Virus record (IMG/VR): IMGVR_UViG_3300048838_000242
Location: 1-41,241 of that record
Length of the DNA: 41,241 nucleotides
Direction: 5' to 3' (one strand)
Origin: a virus
In this document: piece by piece, positions 6,631-41,241 of the stretch
How the letters are laid out: every line of letters begins with the position of its first letter
How positions within the stretch are numbered: position 1 is the stretch's first letter
Program-made: the position numbers and the translations under genes
Notes under the pieces: generated by a model
What the model was told of the DNA's origin: nothing
The model's database searches: none
What the model saw: only the letters and a program-made list of their open reading frames with translations

Positions 6631-7192
6631 TACATTAAAATTAAACCCAAACAACCCAAGAACTATCTCAAAAATAAAGTATGAGAAGTTAAAAAAATCC
6701 CTACATGAATTTGTCAAAATGCTGGAAATTAGACCTATTGCCTATGACGAGGAAGGTATTATTTGGGGCGGTAACATGAGATTTAGGGCTTTGAAAGATT
6801 TAGTTAATGAGGGTTTACTTGAAGACAAGCCAGAATATTACAAAGAACTCACGGGGTTTACCTTAGAGGAAAAAAGACGCTTTGCAATAGAGGGCAATGT
6901 AGAGTTTGGAGATTGGGACATGGACATGCTAGGCAATGAGTGGGACGACTTACCACTTGATGAGTGGGGGGTTTTACCTGCTACATGGGGAGCTGAAGCC
7001 GTTGATGTAAATGAATTGTGGGAACAAAACGGAATGCCAGATTATGGTGACCCAAGCTCAAAGAAGCCTTTCAGGTCTGTGATGGTGCATTTTCAAACAC
7101 AAGATGATGTTAATAGGTTTGCAGAATTGCTAATGCAAACAATTACAGAAAAAACTAAATTCTTGTGGTATCCACGAAAAAATGAAGTATAA
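6614..7192 (+). CDS. ParB/Srx-like domain protein
   Basis: A 192-aa protein. The N-terminal LNPNNPRTISKIKYEKLKKS and IIWGGNMRFRALKDL match the ParB-like nuclease/NTP-binding fold (N-P-R, then G-G-x-x-R). The C-terminal half is acidic and tryptophan-rich, ending in a small ferredoxin-like segment (SVMVHFQTQDDVNRF). In phages such stand-alone ParB domains often sit beside DNA-modifying enzymes and the terminase. Here it directly precedes two TAGT-type glycosyltransferases, so a role in DNA modification is plausible but unproven. Confidence 0.8.
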   Translation: MTPNVNTLKLNPNNPRTISKIKYEKLKKSLHEFVKMLEIRPIAYDEEGIIWGGNMRFRALKDLVNEGLLEDKPEYYKELTGFTLEEKRRFAIEGNVEFGDWDMDMLGNEWDDLPLDEWGVLPATWGAEAVDVNELWEQNGMPDYGDPSSKKPFRSVMVHFQTQDDVNRFAELLMQTITEKTKFLWYPRKNEV

Positions 7193-7943
7193 GATTTATA
7201 TACCTACATTAGGCAGGTGGGAGCGAAGTTTAACTGCCGACCTGCTTTTATCACAGAACATTGATTTTAAACTGGTGGTTGAGGACAAGGAATATACCAA
7301 ATATGCCGATAAATTTGGTAGTGACAGGGTATTGAAGCTACCGAGCAGTAATTATGGCGGTGTGGCTTTTGCTAGGAACTTTATTAAGGAACACTCCAAA
7401 AATCACGGCGAGTTAAGGCATTGGCAAATAGATGATGACATTAAAAAGATTTATCAACAAAGTGGCGGTAAGGTAATAAATGATTCTGTTGATGAAGTTC
7501 TAACTAACTGCGAGAACTTTGTTGATGTATTCAGTAATGTTGGGCTTGCTTCATTATCAAGCAATGTCTTTGTTAAATGGCAAAAAAATCCCTTTGAAAT
7601 AAACAAATGTGCATACACGATAAAGCTAATTGATAATTCACTCGATATAAATTGGAACGGCGATGTGGTTGAGGACATAGATTACAATTTGCAGGTCTTA
7701 GATAGTGGTTACTGCACGCTACGGTTTAATTCTTTTTGTTTTGCATGGAGTGGTGCTGGTGAACAAAACGGTGGTTGGTCTGATGTTTACAGAGCCACGG
7801 GTTATAAAGAACACATAATAGCTACTCAAAAGAAATGGGGACTTGGTAAGGTGACGAAGAAGGTTAAAAATGGAATAGATTTATATGTTGTTGATTACAA
7901 CAAGAAATTCAGAGAGTACAAACAAACTTTAAAAAAATTATGA
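7182..7943 (+). CDS. TET-associated-type glycosyltransferase (TAGT), copy 1
   Basis: A 253-aa protein beginning YKIYIPTLGRWERSLTADLL, followed by KLVVEDKEYTKYADKF, the stretch GGVAFARNFI, and HWQIDDDI (DDD at 84-86). This order (GR-T, VE-x-E-Y, RN-I, hW-x-DDDI) is that of the TAGT family of GT-A enzymes, described from phage loci that decorate DNA bases. It is clearly related to the next gene. It overlaps the neighbours by 11 and 4 nt. No TET/JBP dioxygenase or base-hydroxylating gene is visible in this window, so the substrate is open. Confidence 0.75.
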   Translation: MKYKIYIPTLGRWERSLTADLLLSQNIDFKLVVEDKEYTKYADKFGSDRVLKLPSSNYGGVAFARNFIKEHSKNHGELRHWQIDDDIKKIYQQSGGKVINDSVDEVLTNCENFVDVFSNVGLASLSSNVFVKWQKNPFEINKCAYTIKLIDNSLDINWNGDVVEDIDYNLQVLDSGYCTLRFNSFCFAWSGAGEQNGGWSDVYRATGYKEHIIATQKKWGLGKVTKKVKNGIDLYVVDYNKKFREYKQTLKKL

Positions 7944-8731
7944 ACCCCGATTATCCAGTCTATATAATATCTAAAGGGCGTTGGGAAAGTAGATTAACAA
8001 GCAAGGCATTGGAAAAAATCAATGTACATTATCACATAGTCATTGAACCGCAGGAATACGAACAATACTCGTCAGTAATAGACCCTAAAAAAATACTCAT
8101 TTTGCCTTTTAGTAATTTAGGTCAAGGCTCAATCCCTGCTAGAAATTGGGTTTGGGAGCATTCCATATCTATAGGTGCAAAAAGACATTGGATTTTAGAT
8201 GACAACATCAGAAATTTTAGAGTTGTTAAAGACGGTGAGCGTTACAAAAACGGTGCAAAGGTTACTGATGGTTACTCGTTTAAAATGATAGAGCAATTTG
8301 TTGATAGATACTCAAATATCAAAATGGCAGGTATGCAATATACTTTCCATAATGTCTATAACCCCAAGCCAATGATTTTGAATACTAGAATTTATTCCTG
8401 CATTTTACTTTCCAATGACATAGACCACAGGTGGCGAGGTAGGTACAACGAAGACACGGATTTATCCATACGCATATTAAAAGACGGCTACTGTACTGTT
8501 TTGTTTAATATGTTTACTTGTGATAAACAAATGACTATGACCATGAAGGGCGGTAATACCGATATGCTGTATAAACAAAACCAAGAATTTGACGGTAGGT
8601 TAGAAATGGCAAAACACCTACAAAAACAACACCCAGACATTGTTAAAGTTAAGTGGAAATGGGGTAGGTGGCAACATGAGGTAGATTATAGGCAGTTTAG
8701 GAAGAATAGATTAATACCTATTGACAATTAG
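7940..8731 (+). CDS. TET-associated-type glycosyltransferase (TAGT), copy 2
   Basis: A 263-aa protein very close to the family pattern: PVYIISKGRWESRLTSKAL, HIVIEPQEYEQY, FSNLGQGSIPARNWVWEH, RHWILDDNI (DD at 87-88), then RGRYNEDTDLSIRILKDGY and MTMTMKGGNTD. The acidic pairs are the likely metal and catalytic residues. It is divergent from copy 1, so the two may add different sugars or act in sequence. This is the last gene before the promoter at 8721. Confidence 0.85.
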   Translation: MNPDYPVYIISKGRWESRLTSKALEKINVHYHIVIEPQEYEQYSSVIDPKKILILPFSNLGQGSIPARNWVWEHSISIGAKRHWILDDNIRNFRVVKDGERYKNGAKVTDGYSFKMIEQFVDRYSNIKMAGMQYTFHNVYNPKPMILNTRIYSCILLSNDIDHRWRGRYNEDTDLSIRILKDGYCTVLFNMFTCDKQMTMTMKGGNTDMLYKQNQEFDGRLEMAKHLQKQHPDIVKVKWKWGRWQHEVDYRQFRKNRLIPIDN

Positions 8732-8749
8732 GTAAATATATATTATATT
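8721..8749 (+). promoter_or_regulatory. Class E promoter (TTGACA / 17 / TATATT)
   Basis: TTGACA at 8721-8726, a 17-nt spacer containing GTAAATAT exactly five bases after the -35, and TATATT at 8744-8749. The same spacer element recurs in the promoters at 36274 and 38837. It overlaps the end of the second TAGT gene and drives the packaging block. Confidence 0.8.
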
Positions 8750-8764
8750 GGTATCAATAATTAT

Positions 8765-8776
8765 TTGAAAGGATTA
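8765..8776 (+). promoter_or_regulatory. Uniform leader site TTGAAAGGATTA (ribosome binding)
   Basis: TTGAAAGGATTA a few bases before the ATG at 8782. GAAAGGA pairs with a 16S tail of the CCUUUC type. The same string precedes 36334, 38898 and, with one change, 39589. It is complementary to the hairpin loop at 38319-38331. Confidence 0.75.
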
Positions 8777-8781
8777 CTAAA

Positions 8782-34088: not shown

Positions 34089-34136
34089 CACAAAGGGCAA
34101 AGATATATAAATGATGTTTGTTCTTCCTTGACAGGG

Positions 34137-34205
34137 TGCTATAATGTGTTAGTAAAAGTCTCCTTCTTAACCAAAGCACTTAAACCCCGTCAAGGGGTTT
34201 TTGTG
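34137..34205 (+). ncRNA. Short transcription unit: TATAAT promoter to intrinsic terminator
   Basis: TATAAT at 34140-34145 with an upstream TGC (extended -10) would start an RNA near 34152. A terminator with stem AAACCCC/GGGGTTT (34182-34200) and a T-run follows about 35-50 bases later. There is no reading frame of note inside. Expected product about 50 nt; function unknown. Confidence 0.5.
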
Positions 34206-34354
34206 TTATAATGTTTATGGTTCCTATTCGAAGGGAACTAACTCTCAATTTCGGGGAGTTTACAAACTAATATCGGCTACTGTGGGCAGGAGTAATCGGT
34301 GCAATAACCCTCTAGCAATAGGGGGTTATTTAATGAAACGGTGTTTCACTTTTT
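34204..34354 (+). ncRNA. Structured small RNA candidate with own promoter and terminator
   Basis: An extended -10 TGT TATAAT (34204-34212) lies directly behind the previous terminator. Predicted hairpins follow: GTTCC/GGAAC near 34219-34238, AACTCTC with GGGGAGTT near 34239-34260, and AATAACCC/GGGTTATT (34293-34330). The unit ends at stem TGAAAC/GTTTCA (34334-34348) plus five T. A 17-codon frame (34217-34270) four bases behind the -10 is also present. Either a small regulatory RNA or a leader. Confidence 0.5.
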
Positions 34355-34398
34355 CCTATTTACAAGCCAAATAGTCCGTGTTATTGTGTTTGTATAAA

Positions 34399-34505
34399 TG
34401 CAACATCGGGCTTTTCTATACATAAATTTTAATAACAATAACCTACCTACGGGCGTGGCTGATGTTGCAATTTGTCCTCTTACCTCGTGGGTAGGTTTTT
34501 GTTAT
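34399..34505 (+). promoter_or_regulatory. Structured 5' leader with two interlocked inverted repeats
   Basis: Arm A1 TGCAACATC (34399-34407) pairs with A2 GATGTTGCA (34461-34469). Arm B1 (34432-34451) pairs with B2 (34486-34505) over 20 positions, with one mismatch and one wobble. The order A1-B1-A2-B2 is that of a pseudoknot or of switching hairpins. B2 contains a five-T run, so the B stem could act as a terminator. The structure ends 10 bases before the start of the replication operon at 34516. Confidence 0.65.
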
Positions 34506-34515
34506 CGAGGTCTAT

Positions 34516-34707
34516 ATGGAAAATAACGACATGATAATAAATTTAATTAGTGATGTTGCTACAACAAGGGCAAGACACAATGTTGCAAGGATATTGGTTG
34601 ATGTTGCCGACGCATTGTTAGATGAATACATACTTGAGGGGTTAATCATGGACTTGAACTCACTAAAAGGTAAATTTAAAAAAGACAAAGTTAAAAAGGT
34701 AAAATAA
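34516..34707 (+). CDS. Small hypothetical protein opening the replication operon, 63 aa
   Basis: MENNDMIINLISDVATTRAR, then a helical middle and a very basic end (GKFKKDKVKKVK). Not recognised. GAGG lies seven bases before the ATG, directly after the structured leader. It is joined to the replication gene by TAATG, so both are probably under control of the leader. Confidence 0.6.
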   Translation: MENNDMIINLISDVATTRARHNVARILVDVADALLDEYILEGLIMDLNSLKGKFKKDKVKKVK

Positions 34708-35438
34708 TGCTCACTTATACAACCATTGTCCACCAAGCTAGAGAGGATTTAGGTATAAGCCTAAATGAGTATGCCCTTGCCGATATTATTTATCACATAC
34801 AAAACAATCCTAATTCCAGTCATTATGGTTGGTGTTATGCCTCTAAAGAATATCTAGGCAGGTGCATTGGAGTATCAAAACAGGCTATCCATTCAATACT
34901 TAAACGCCTGTATAAACTAGAGATATTGGAGCAACAACCCGACACGAAACATTTAAGGACAACTAACAAGTGGTATGAAGCTGTGGTTATATTGGTAAAT
35001 GAGGGTAAAGAAACTTTACCAATGGTAAAGAAAGTTTACTCCGATGGTAAAGAAAGTTTACCCGAAACCAGTAAAGAAAGTTTACCCAATAATAATATTA
35101 TTAATAACAATAATATAGACAATACTGTACCACCTAAAGGTGATACCACTAAATATAATGGGTATAAAAAGGAATACATACAAGACTATATTGATTTCTT
35201 CAATAAGTTGTTTAACTCGAACTTTAGAGTAACACCAGCCCGTGAGAATAAATTAAAACTCCGATTTAAAACCTATACAGGTGATGAGATTTTAAAAGCC
35301 TTGCAAAATCTCTCTAAAAGTAAGTTTCATCAGGGTGATAATGACAGGGGTTGGAAAGCCGACCCAGATTTCCTTATCAGAAGTGATGAACAAATAGATA
35401 TCTGGTTAAACAAGAAAGATTCAAAAAATGACTTTTGA
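34707..35438 (+). CDS. Replisome organiser / replication initiator
   Basis: A 243-aa protein. An N-terminal winged helix (residues about 1-85: NEYALADIIYHIQNN, YASKEYLGRCIGVSKQAIHS, LKRLYKLEILEQ) resembles phage replication organisers. A low-complexity linker (about 97-150) follows. The C-terminal domain (DYIDFFNKLFNSNFRVTP, DEILKALQNLSKSKFHQGD, WKADPDFLI) is DnaD/Phg_2220_C-like. It would bind the origin and recruit the host helicase. The linker DNA carries the iteron array at 35004-35086, the layout known for lambda O. Confidence 0.8.
   Translation: MLTYTTIVHQAREDLGISLNEYALADIIYHIQNNPNSSHYGWCYASKEYLGRCIGVSKQAIHSILKRLYKLEILEQQPDTKHLRTTNKWYEAVVILVNEGKETLPMVKKVYSDGKESLPETSKESLPNNNIINNNNIDNTVPPKGDTTKYNGYKKEYIQDYIDFFNKLFNSNFRVTPARENKLKLRFKTYTGDEILKALQNLSKSKFHQGDNDRGWKADPDFLIRSDEQIDIWLNKKDSKNDF
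35004..35120 (+). other. Origin-like iteron array with AT-rich element inside the initiator gene
   Basis: Four 17-nt copies of GGTAAAGAAAGTTTACC start at 35004, 35024, 35046 and 35070. Each is itself a hyphenated dyad (GTAAA/TTTAC). An almost pure AT stretch with TAATAATATTATTA follows at 35087-35120. Copies 1, 3 and 4 are read as GKESLP-type peptide, but copy 2 lies in another frame (VKKVY). The DNA, not the protein, is therefore what is conserved. Matches the iterons plus unwinding element of lambdoid origins. Confidence 0.75.
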
Positions 35439-35802: not shown

Positions 35803-36284
35803 CACACGGAAGTGACTACAACTATTTCATTGAAGAATTACAGGCAATTTTAGTTGAGGGTGTCTACAACTCTAATTTGGAATTGATACAGACCTACCAT
35901 CAATTTGGACAAAGAATTTATGAGGAAATGCAAAGGGATAATGTATATGGTCAAAAGCTCACGGAACGCATTGCAAAGGATTTGGGAAAATCACAACGAA
36001 CCATACAAAAATGTGTGCGGTTTGCAAAGGATTGCCCCAACCTAGACGATTTCTTGTCTGCTGTAGATGAGGGAAAAAGCATTTCATGGCGTAAAATCGC
36101 CAATCATTATTTGGTAGAACCAAGTGAAACTAAAGAGGTAGTGCCAGTTGAACCAGTAAACAATATTGCGGAGTGTATAAGGTTAAATCTAAAGTTTCTC
36201 ATTGATACTGCAACAATAAAACCAGATGGCATACACTTGTTTTTACCAAAAGATATGTGTTCCGAACTACCTGTTGACAAATAA
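35793..36284 (+). CDS. DUF1016 N-terminal-like protein
   Basis: A 163-aa protein. Residues about 8-85 (FIEELQAILVEGVYNSNLEL, YHQFGQRIYEEMQRD, LTERIAKDLGKSQRTIQKCV, RFAKDCP) match the helical N-terminal domain of DUF1016 (YhcG-type) proteins, whose full-length members carry a PD-(D/E)XK nuclease behind it. That nuclease part is missing here, so this is probably a DNA-binding regulator or adaptor. GGGGG lies before the ATG. Confidence 0.7.
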   Translation: MELTHGSDYNYFIEELQAILVEGVYNSNLELIQTYHQFGQRIYEEMQRDNVYGQKLTERIAKDLGKSQRTIQKCVRFAKDCPNLDDFLSAVDEGKSISWRKIANHYLVEPSETKEVVPVEPVNNIAECIRLNLKFLIDTATIKPDGIHLFLPKDMCSELPVDK

Positions 36285-36302
36285 GTAAATATATTGTAAA
36301 TT
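36274..36302 (+). promoter_or_regulatory. Class E promoter (TTGACA / 17 / TAAATT)
   Basis: TTGACA at 36274-36279, AATAAGTAAATAT in the spacer as at 38837, and TAAATT at 36297-36302. It overlaps the end of the DUF1016-like gene and drives the recombination block. Confidence 0.8.
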
Positions 36303-36317
36303 GTACATATTAATTAA

Positions 36318-36330
36318 TTGAAAGGATTAA
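36318..36330 (+). promoter_or_regulatory. Uniform leader site TTGAAAGGATTAA
   Basis: The full 13-nt ribosome-binding sequence just before the ATG at 36334. It is perfectly complementary to the hairpin loop at 38319-38331. Confidence 0.8.
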
Positions 36331-36612: not shown

Positions 36613-36836
36613 ACGAATACTCACACATATTGAAATTACTTGAAGATTATATACAGCTTATGAAGTCGGAAGAATTTTCAATAGGCATAAGACAAAACAC
36701 ACATTACACACAAGAGGATATAGAAATAATGATTTCAACGGCACACGTTATTTACAACTTGATAAATGGTGAAGTAATTAAGGAATTAGCAATAATGGGT
36801 GCAGAAATGGAGAAACAATGTCAACCAAAGGCTTAA
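36609..36836 (+). CDS. Hypothetical protein, 75 aa
   Basis: An all-helical acidic protein (NEYSHILKLLEDYIQLMKSE, then DIEIMISTAHVIYNLINGE). No domain recognised. It overlaps both neighbours and lies directly before the nuclease gene, so a partner role in recombination is possible. Confidence 0.6.
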   Translation: MNEYSHILKLLEDYIQLMKSEEFSIGIRQNTHYTQEDIEIMISTAHVIYNLINGEVIKELAIMGAEMEKQCQPKA

Positions 36837-38279: not shown

Positions 38280-38346
38280 TCCCACTTTCATAGGTGGGAG
38301 GGTGAGTTGGGTTCGTTCTTAATCCTTTCAAACGCGACTCACCCTC
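38280..38346 (+). ncRNA. Double-hairpin RNA with loop complementary to the phage ribosome-binding site
   Basis: Hairpin 1 is TCCCAC/GTGGGA (38280-38299). Hairpin 2 pairs 38298-38309 with 38335-38346: 12 bp, one wobble, core GAGGGTGAGT/ACTCACCCTC. It leaves a 25-nt loop whose centre, TTAATCCTTTCAA (38319-38331), is the exact complement of TTGAAAGGATTAA before 36334 and 38898. It complements 12 of 13 positions before 8782 and 39589, and 9 before 40815. A TGG-TTTAGT box at 38266-38274 could start the RNA at about 38281. It may act in trans, as a leader of the next gene, or both. Confidence 0.65.
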
Positions 38347-38352
38347 TTGCTT

Positions 38353-38517
38353 ATGAAAAAACAAATTAAAAAAATATTAGGTAATTTTGGTTGGGATTAT
38401 TGCCAGTATTGTGGCGAAAAACTAACATTTGACCAAGAAAAATTTGATATGGGTTATAGAGTTCACTCGAAATGCCCTAAATGTACTAATTTACAAAGGT
38501 TCGATGTTACCCTGTAA
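38353..38517 (+). CDS. Zinc-ribbon mini-protein A, 54 aa
   Basis: MKKQIKKILGNFGWDYCQYC, then a loop and CPKC: two CxxC pairs (C17/C20, C41/C44) with a His38 between. No ribosome site; the ATG lies six bases after the hairpin stem at 38335-38346, so the hairpin may control its translation. Family unknown; probably nucleic-acid or protein binding. Confidence 0.6.
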   Translation: MKKQIKKILGNFGWDYCQYCGEKLTFDQEKFDMGYRVHSKCPKCTNLQRFDVTL

Positions 38518-38656: not shown

Positions 38657-38828
38657 ACAAATAGCCCGTGACTACGAAATAATGCTGGAAAACGGCGTTA
38701 AAGGCTATGACGCAATATTTAAACTGGCTGAAGAAAACCAAATGAGTCGATTTCAGATTTACCGATACATAAAACACGCAGGAACACCCATAAAAAAGGA
38801 CAGAACTAAACCCCCCAAAACCCAATAA
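38619..38828 (+). CDS. Small helix-turn-helix-like protein, 69 aa
   Basis: MSFKNPILQEYAEQIARDYE, then GYDAIFKLAEENQMSRFQIY, RYIKHAG and a basic tail (KKDRTKPPKTQ). The second helix pair (FKLAEENQMSRFQIYRYIK) fits a helix-turn-helix, so this may be a transcription regulator of the neighbouring class E promoters. The start overlaps mini-protein B by 38 nt; the in-frame ATG at 38535 is rejected because it lies deep in that gene. Confidence 0.6.
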   Translation: MSFKNPILQEYAEQIARDYEIMLENGVKGYDAIFKLAEENQMSRFQIYRYIKHAGTPIKKDRTKPPKTQ

Positions 38829-38836
38829 ATTACCTA

Positions 38837-38865
38837 TTGACAAATAAGTAAATATGTATTAATAT
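38837..38865 (+). promoter_or_regulatory. Class E promoter (TTGACA / 17 / TAATAT)
   Basis: TTGACA at 38837-38842, spacer with AATAAGTAAATAT as at 36274, TAATAT at 38860-38865. The strong sequence identity to the other two members reaches beyond the -35/-10 boxes. Confidence 0.82.
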
Positions 38866-38880
38866 GTATTTATTAATAAA

Positions 38881-38893
38881 TTGAAAGGATTAA
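38881..38893 (+). promoter_or_regulatory. Uniform leader site TTGAAAGGATTAA
   Basis: The 13-nt site just before the ATG at 38898, identical to that before 36334 and complementary to the loop at 38319-38331, which lies only about 550 bases upstream. Confidence 0.8.
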
Positions 38894-39314: not shown

Positions 39315-39592
39315 TGAATATAAATCACATTACCAAAAAGCCATATAAAAATAATAATCAAACATTACTTGAGGATACAAGGAAAAAGGAAGGTTATAAA
39401 TCAAAATCTTGGTTGACTTTTGTACAGGCTAATAGTTGCGGATTAAAAGTAAAATCGGGCGAACACGGCACTAAATTAATGTATGTAACAGATGAGGAAG
39501 TTCCTGTAGAGGGAAGCAATGATTCATTACGTCATCAAATAAAAAGATTTACCGTATTTAATTTAGAGCAAACTGAAAGGATTAAAAAATGA
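39314..39592 (+). CDS. ArdC N-terminal-domain protein (antirestriction-like)
   Basis: A 92-aa protein that starts on the previous stop (TAATG). SWLTFVQANSCGLKVKSGEH, GTKLMYV and RFTVFNLEQTE match the ssDNA-binding N-terminal domain of ArdC (W-x-T-x-x-QA, G-x-x-V-x-x-GE-x-GT, VFN-x-x-Q). ArdC shields incoming DNA from restriction. Here the metallopeptidase half of full ArdC is absent. Confidence 0.78.
   Translation: MNINHITKKPYKNNNQTLLEDTRKKEGYKSKSWLTFVQANSCGLKVKSGEHGTKLMYVTDEEVPVEGSNDSLRHQIKRFTVFNLEQTERIKK
39573..39585 (+). promoter_or_regulatory. Leader site CTGAAAGGATTAA within the operon
   Basis: One base different from the uniform 13-nt site; located in the end of the ArdC-like gene, three bases before the ATG at 39589. 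It still pairs with 12 bases of the loop at 38319-38331. Confidence 0.7.
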
Positions 39593-40801: not shown

Positions 40802-40810
40802 TTGAAAGGA
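40802..40810 (+). promoter_or_regulatory. Leader site TTGAAAGGA before the repeat gene
   Basis: A shortened version of the uniform site (nine bases kept) four bases before the ATG at 40815. Confidence 0.65.
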
Positions 40811-40814
40811 ACAA

Positions 40815-41241
40815 ATGAAAAAATATAGTTTAACAAAAGAAACAAAAGAGCGGGGCGGAAAAACCCTTTTCAGGATAAGGGCAGCGAAATCGTTTGGTAT
40901 TGTAACTAAGGGGGAGTTGGGGGGATTTGTAGAAAAAGAGGGGAACTTATCGCAAGAAGATAATGCTTGGGTTTCTGGCGATGCTCTGGTTTATGGCGAT
41001 GCTCTGGTTTATGGCGATGCTCAGGTTTATGGCGATGCTCTGGTTTATGGCAATGCTCTGGTTTATGGCGATGCTCAGGTTTATGGCGATGCTCTGGTTT
41101 ATGGCAATGCTCGGGTTTATGGCGATGCTTGGGTTTCTGGCAATGCTCAGGTTTCTGGCAATGCTCGGGTTTATGGCAATGCTCTGGTTTCTGGCAATGC
41201 TCAGGTTTCTGGCAATGCTCAGGTTTATGTAGATGCTCTGG
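40815..41241 (+). CDS. N-terminal part of hexapeptide-repeat beta-helix protein (runs off the window)
   Basis: MKKYSLTKETKERGGKTLFR, then IRAAKSFGIVTKGELGGFVE, is a widespread phage N-terminal cap. The LGG-x-x-E segment leads directly into about fifteen VYGDAx/VSGNAx repeats that continue past the end of the window. Positions within the repeat vary in a patterned way: D or N, Y or S, and L, Q, R or W. The protein should form a solenoid with these residues outward. The C-terminal end is at 1-251. Function unknown. Confidence 0.85.
   Translation, partial: MKKYSLTKETKERGGKTLFRIRAAKSFGIVTKGELGGFVEKEGNLSQEDNAWVSGDALVYGDALVYGDAQVYGDALVYGNALVYGDAQVYGDALVYGNARVYGDAWVSGNAQVSGNARVYGNALVSGNAQVSGNAQVYVDAL
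40965..41241 (+). repeat. 18-nt tandem coding repeat
   Basis: About fifteen copies of an 18-nt unit (core GTTTATGGCGATGCTCTG). Copies differ mainly at the three codons that give D/N, L/Q/R/W and Y/S. The same unit occupies bases 1-80. A tract that long explains why an assembly would break here. Confidence 0.92.

Follow-up and report, generated by a model that had tools for sequence, protein, structure and literature searches.

A long RNA hairpin in a virus record with a loop complementary to the leaders of the phage's own operons: a candidate antisense regulator

What might be the role of a long intercistronic hairpin whose loop carries the complement of ribosome-binding sites of the same phage? 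We addressed this question in the window analyzed here, which is a whole IMG/VR virus record of 41,241 bases with 37% GC. The hairpin is located on the sense strand of its operon after gene 37848, begins 12 nt past the upstream gene's stop codon (38273), and has exonuclease-like, zinc-ribbon, RadC, and ArdC-like genes as neighbors. The original prediction described a 12-bp stem (38298-38309 with 38335-38346) that closes a 25-nt loop and is adjoined by a second hairpin. Both the stem and the loop are present, and the stem runs on to a single unbroken RNA helix of 24 bp (38286..38358 on the plus strand, arms 38286-38309/38335-38358, 5 G.U pairs), the longest in the record, the runner-up having 15 bp. 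With a minimum free energy of -40.6 kcal/mol (z -6.3; 0 of 200 shuffled sequences equally stable), it is the lowest-energy local structure found when both strands of the 41,241-base record were scanned. The adjoining second hairpin did not hold up as a separate element: it is a competing fold, as its pairing requires bases that form the outer half of the long stem, and the resulting two-hairpin form reaches -25.2 kcal/mol versus about -40 kcal/mol for the long form, a difference of some 15 kcal/mol.

The fold is strongly strand-biased. RNA of the plus strand folds at -40.6 kcal/mol versus -29.3 kcal/mol for the minus strand, because all five positions at which the stem departs from Watson-Crick pairing in the DNA are G.U pairs on the plus strand. 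Together, the bias and the placement of the G.U pairs point to a function of the sense-strand RNA and are what selection on this RNA would be expected to produce. A minus-strand RNA that would expose the Shine-Dalgarno sequence itself was rejected as a candidate, since it folds much less well. Also rejected were an intrinsic terminator (the 3' side of the hairpin reads CTCTTGCTTATGAAAAAAC with no T-run, and the hairpin is absent from the sites of the terminator scan), a tRNA identity, and the Rfam families: covariance models, those for C4 and RNAIII included, gave no family at the gathering score in the window. The promoter and terminator scan revealed neither a promoter-like site directly before the hairpin nor a T-run terminator directly after it that would delimit a discrete RNA. 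The coordinates of the hairpin elements and of the sites discussed below are collected in Table 1.

Table 1. Elements of the hairpin region and leader sites complementary to its loop (window positions)
Feature	Position	Strand	Remarks
Loop, 25 nt	38310..38334	+	Presents the anti-leader motif; weak pairs inside, GTT/AAC (38311-38313 with 38331-38333)
Anti-leader motif TTAATCCTTTCAA	38319..38331	+	Perfect complement of leader TTGAAAGGATTAA
UCGUU, possible partner of AAUGA at target start codons	38313..38317	+	Duplex predictions; suggestive only
Alternative 5-bp hairpin (38281-38285/38294-38298)	38281..38298	+	Excludes outer half of long stem
54-aa zinc-ribbon ORF (CxxC...CxxC)	38353..38517	+	AUG paired in 3' arm of stem; no Shine-Dalgarno
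Promoter-like site (TTGACA 36274, 17 nt, TAAATT) plus leader, target 36318-36330 (gene 36334)	36265..36330	+	66-nt repeat, promoter scan; heads the hairpin's operon
Second promoter-plus-leader copy, target 38881-38893 (gene 38898)	38828..38893	+	66-nt repeat, promoter scan; heads radC/ardC operon
Third promoter-plus-leader copy, target 8764-8776 (13 nt, one-base shift)	8712..8777	+	66-nt repeat; heads gene 8782, terminase, portal
12-nt target before gene 39589, without promoter repeat	39573..39585	+	Complement search
9-nt target before gene 40815, without promoter repeat	40802..40810	+	Complement search

The loop motif TTAATCCTTTCAA has perfect 13-nt complements in the leaders of genes 36334 and 38898, a 12-nt complement in the leader of 39589, and a 9-nt complement in that of 40815, exactly as had been predicted. 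For gene 8782, 12 nt had been claimed; this is the extent of the match in the same register, and a one-base shift extends it to 13 nt (TTTGAAAGGATTA). Three of the targets lie within 66-nt promoter-plus-leader repeats that include, besides the leader, TTGACA, a 17-nt spacer, and a -10-like hexamer (TTGACA at 8721, 36274, and 38837). Gene 36334 heads the recombination operon, with an exonuclease-like gene at 36818, gene 38898 heads an operon with radC, ardC, and a transglycosylase-like gene, and 8782 is a small gene ahead of the terminase and portal genes of the packaging operon. The hairpin is placed on the presumed transcript from the 36274 promoter, and its own mRNA would therefore carry the best target, about 2 kb upstream of the hairpin. 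The resemblance of the loop to the 16S anti-Shine-Dalgarno sequence, which had been pointed out earlier, is due to its complementarity to GAAAGGA.

The complementarity between loop and leaders is well beyond chance. Unrelated 13-mers complementary to any of the 65 gene leaders occur only twice in 41 kb, and this rate, taken from the record itself, gives a chance of ~6e-4 for a 13-nt match at the 13 loop positions. We further compared the loop with those of ~6,080 hairpins, comprising 545 from the record (both strands), 2,297 from six related records, and 3,238 from other viral loci. Matches of at least 11 nt to two or more leaders were confined to this hairpin, whose loop matched four leaders at 12-13 nt; a few other loops matched a single leader, at 11-12 nt. 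RNA-RNA duplex prediction against the five leaders, the check proposed with the original prediction, gave a mean duplex energy of -18.0 kcal/mol. No 25-mer among 4,122 sampled from the record reached this value, although the five leader matches do not count as five independent events, since the leaders resemble each other. The strongest duplex (-24.9 kcal/mol) was obtained with the leader of 36334, at the head of the hairpin's own presumed mRNA. Additional pairing between UCGUU, in the 5' part of the loop, and the start codons was not significant over the five leaders (88 of 1000 shuffles as good) and is suggestive only; for 36334 alone, one of the five leaders tried, 12 of 500 shuffles did as well.

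Based on these results, we favor, at a probability of about 0.5, an antisense hairpin that prevents translation from starting at the genes heading the phage's own operons, that of its own mRNA among them. The kissing or antisense regulator of phage ribosome-binding sites envisaged in the original prediction thus remains the best reading, given the complementarity beyond chance, with a fold that had been under-called; its suggested reach to host genes is speculative. The polycistronic mRNA from the 36274 promoter would include the element, which might also be excised from it. The 25-nt loop would pair over 13 nt with the Shine-Dalgarno regions of 36334, 38898, and 8782, and less strongly with those of 39589 and 40815, so that binding of the 30S subunit would be blocked; this block would exert negative feedback on the hairpin's own operon and set the timing of the other operons. 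Of these proposed antisense effects, autoregulation of the hairpin's own mRNA is the most probable. The role of the 24-bp stem would be to display the loop, to stabilize the RNA, and to offer RNase III a natural substrate, and it would also hold the AUG of the zinc-ribbon gene. RNase III could cut a 24-bp duplex, and long intercistronic duplexes are typical processing sites. The hairpin could be active either within the mRNA or as a free RNA released by an RNase III cut of the duplex. The hairpin, its complementarity, the rarity of the match, and the gene layout are seen directly in the sequence; we infer the transcription units, the RNA-RNA pairing in the cell, the translational repression, the processing, and the timing. 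Only tentatively do we extend the antisense reading to the whole genome, where one antisense hairpin and the repeated promoter-plus-leader cassette might form a self-regulating RNA circuit over all main operon heads, with the start of the zinc-ribbon gene built in.

The alternative that survives best, although we consider it unlikely as the main explanation, is that the stem governs the zinc-ribbon gene 38353 in cis, either by hiding its AUG or by keeping the AUG beside the upstream stop codon (38273) for reinitiation, the leader match being a side effect or a tuning device. The stem, which starts 12 nt past that stop codon, engages the AUG (38353-38355) in its A/U-rich end, and the ORF has no Shine-Dalgarno sequence; with an AUG so placed and no Shine-Dalgarno sequence, the cis control of 38353 raised in the original prediction is still plausible, and it may coexist with an antisense role. 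The ORF itself gave a weak Pfam match to a double zinc ribbon, below the cut-off, and the predicted fold of the 54-aa protein (mean pLDDT 65) was too uncertain for a fold search. Control in cis is also in line with the relative L002 (L002/G001), whose exonuclease is 71-72% identical and which also has a homolog of the next small protein (38504): between these two genes, L002 has neither the hairpin nor the 38353 ORF. Being absent together, the hairpin and the ORF look like one module of ~230 bp that was inserted here or lost in L002. What cis control leaves without explanation is that the loop is the record's best antisense to the leaders of the operon heads.

Less probable again is autogenous long-range pairing confined to one mRNA, in which the loop would bind its own 5' leader (36318-36330) ~2 kb upstream, no free small RNA would be made, and the other leaders would match as copies. 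The target on the same presumed transcript gives the best duplex energy, and among the five targets, extra pairing comes near significance for 36334 alone (the 12 of 500 shuffles given above). Against such a restriction, the leaders of 38898 and 8782 are also perfect over 13 nt, and nothing limits the pairing to one of them. We regard as improbable that the hairpin merely serves RNase III processing, mRNA stability, or an operon boundary and that its loop matches the leaders by chance; the long intercistronic duplex would suit a processing site and its fold is independent of the loop sequence, but the estimated chance of a 13-nt match in the loop is low, and a match to several leaders was found in no other hairpin of the ~6,080. 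Finally, a DNA operator common to the promoters and inverted at 38319, with no RNA element involved, is highly improbable: three motif copies do stand beside the repeated promoters, but those at 39573 and 40802 directly precede start codons without a promoter repeat and fit a Shine-Dalgarno sequence rather than an operator, the spacing to the ATG likewise fits Shine-Dalgarno, the inverted copy is placed precisely within the loop that the strongest RNA hairpin forms, and similar promoters of the relative G001 lack the motif.

Comparison with related phages bears on the preferred antisense reading through the leaders. L002 is the only relative found with this gene neighborhood, and its leaders differ: the promoter-linked leader is ACAGGAGGTCTT, not GAAAGGATT. 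This difference is consistent with, and no proof of, a joint occurrence of the hairpin and the leader type. A parallel pair of loop and leader was sought in G001 and not found. In five further relatives, recognized by structural genes, the available sequence contained no promoter, leader, or hairpin of this kind. No second copy of the hairpin was detected by single-protein and alignment scans of IMG/VR (neighboring proteins, portal, capsid), by two scans of bacterial genomes, by BLAST against phages and plasmids, or by a scan for the promoter-plus-Shine-Dalgarno pattern, which mostly returned unrelated sequences.

With the functional class of antisense RNAs that act on Shine-Dalgarno sites, the hairpin shares a loop whose complementarity to the target sites exceeds chance. 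The C4 RNA of phages P1 and P7 pairs with a phage mRNA in the region of its ribosome-binding site, by way of complementary sequences that are probably located in loops (PMC12197685). C4 is the nearest mechanistic likeness, both RNAs being phage-encoded and complementary to a ribosome-binding site of phage mRNA; the present loop complements three leaders perfectly over 13 nt, and the likeness is one of mechanism, not of descent. Whereas C4 controls the ant mRNA, the single loop described here fits the leaders of several operons. On its transcript, C4 precedes its target, whereas the present hairpin lies ~2 kb downstream of the target on its own mRNA; nor does it precede an antirepressor (ant/icd) gene on that mRNA. 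In RNAIII of Staphylococcus aureus, the loop of a stable hairpin pairs with the Shine-Dalgarno regions of several mRNAs. RNAIII is, however, a host quorum-sensing RNA of roughly 500 nt with C-rich loops, whereas the hairpin has no Rfam match. Despite similar working, the hairpin is a member of neither C4 nor RNAIII. FinP and other cis-encoded antisense RNAs likewise present, in the loop of a hairpin, the complement of a ribosome-binding site; FinP is made from the strand opposite its target, whereas here the loop and several leaders are on the same strand and at a distance. What sets the element apart is that a single loop matches a leader cassette present in copies at several operons. To our knowledge, phage antisense RNAs, C4, sar, and OOP among them, have been described against single transcripts. 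If the antisense reading is true, one loop directed against a leader that several operons share would allow a phage to couple the translation of its modules economically.

Several other features of the record were observed. The intergenic region 34120-34510 contains three successive promoter-like plus terminator-like units with strong folds, which are candidate tandem small RNAs; the region has no Rfam match, and its first unit includes a C/U-rich CTCCTTCTTAA segment. Four GTAAAGAAAGTTTAC-like repeats at 34999-35087, within a replication-initiator-like gene (34707-35438), are likely origin iterons. Gene 40815 has an array of 18-nt repeats into which both ends of the record (1-121 and 40908-41241) fall, and the genome is therefore probably circular or permuted, with the assembly broken at this array. 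A palindromic TGAAACNNNGTTTCA-like motif occurs in four copies (2462, 5504, 19950, and 34334); glycosyltransferase or methyltransferase genes contain three of these. Two adjacent TET-associated glycosyltransferase (TAGT) genes are encoded at 7182-8731, with several other glycosyltransferases nearby, which suggests modified phage DNA or surface sugars.
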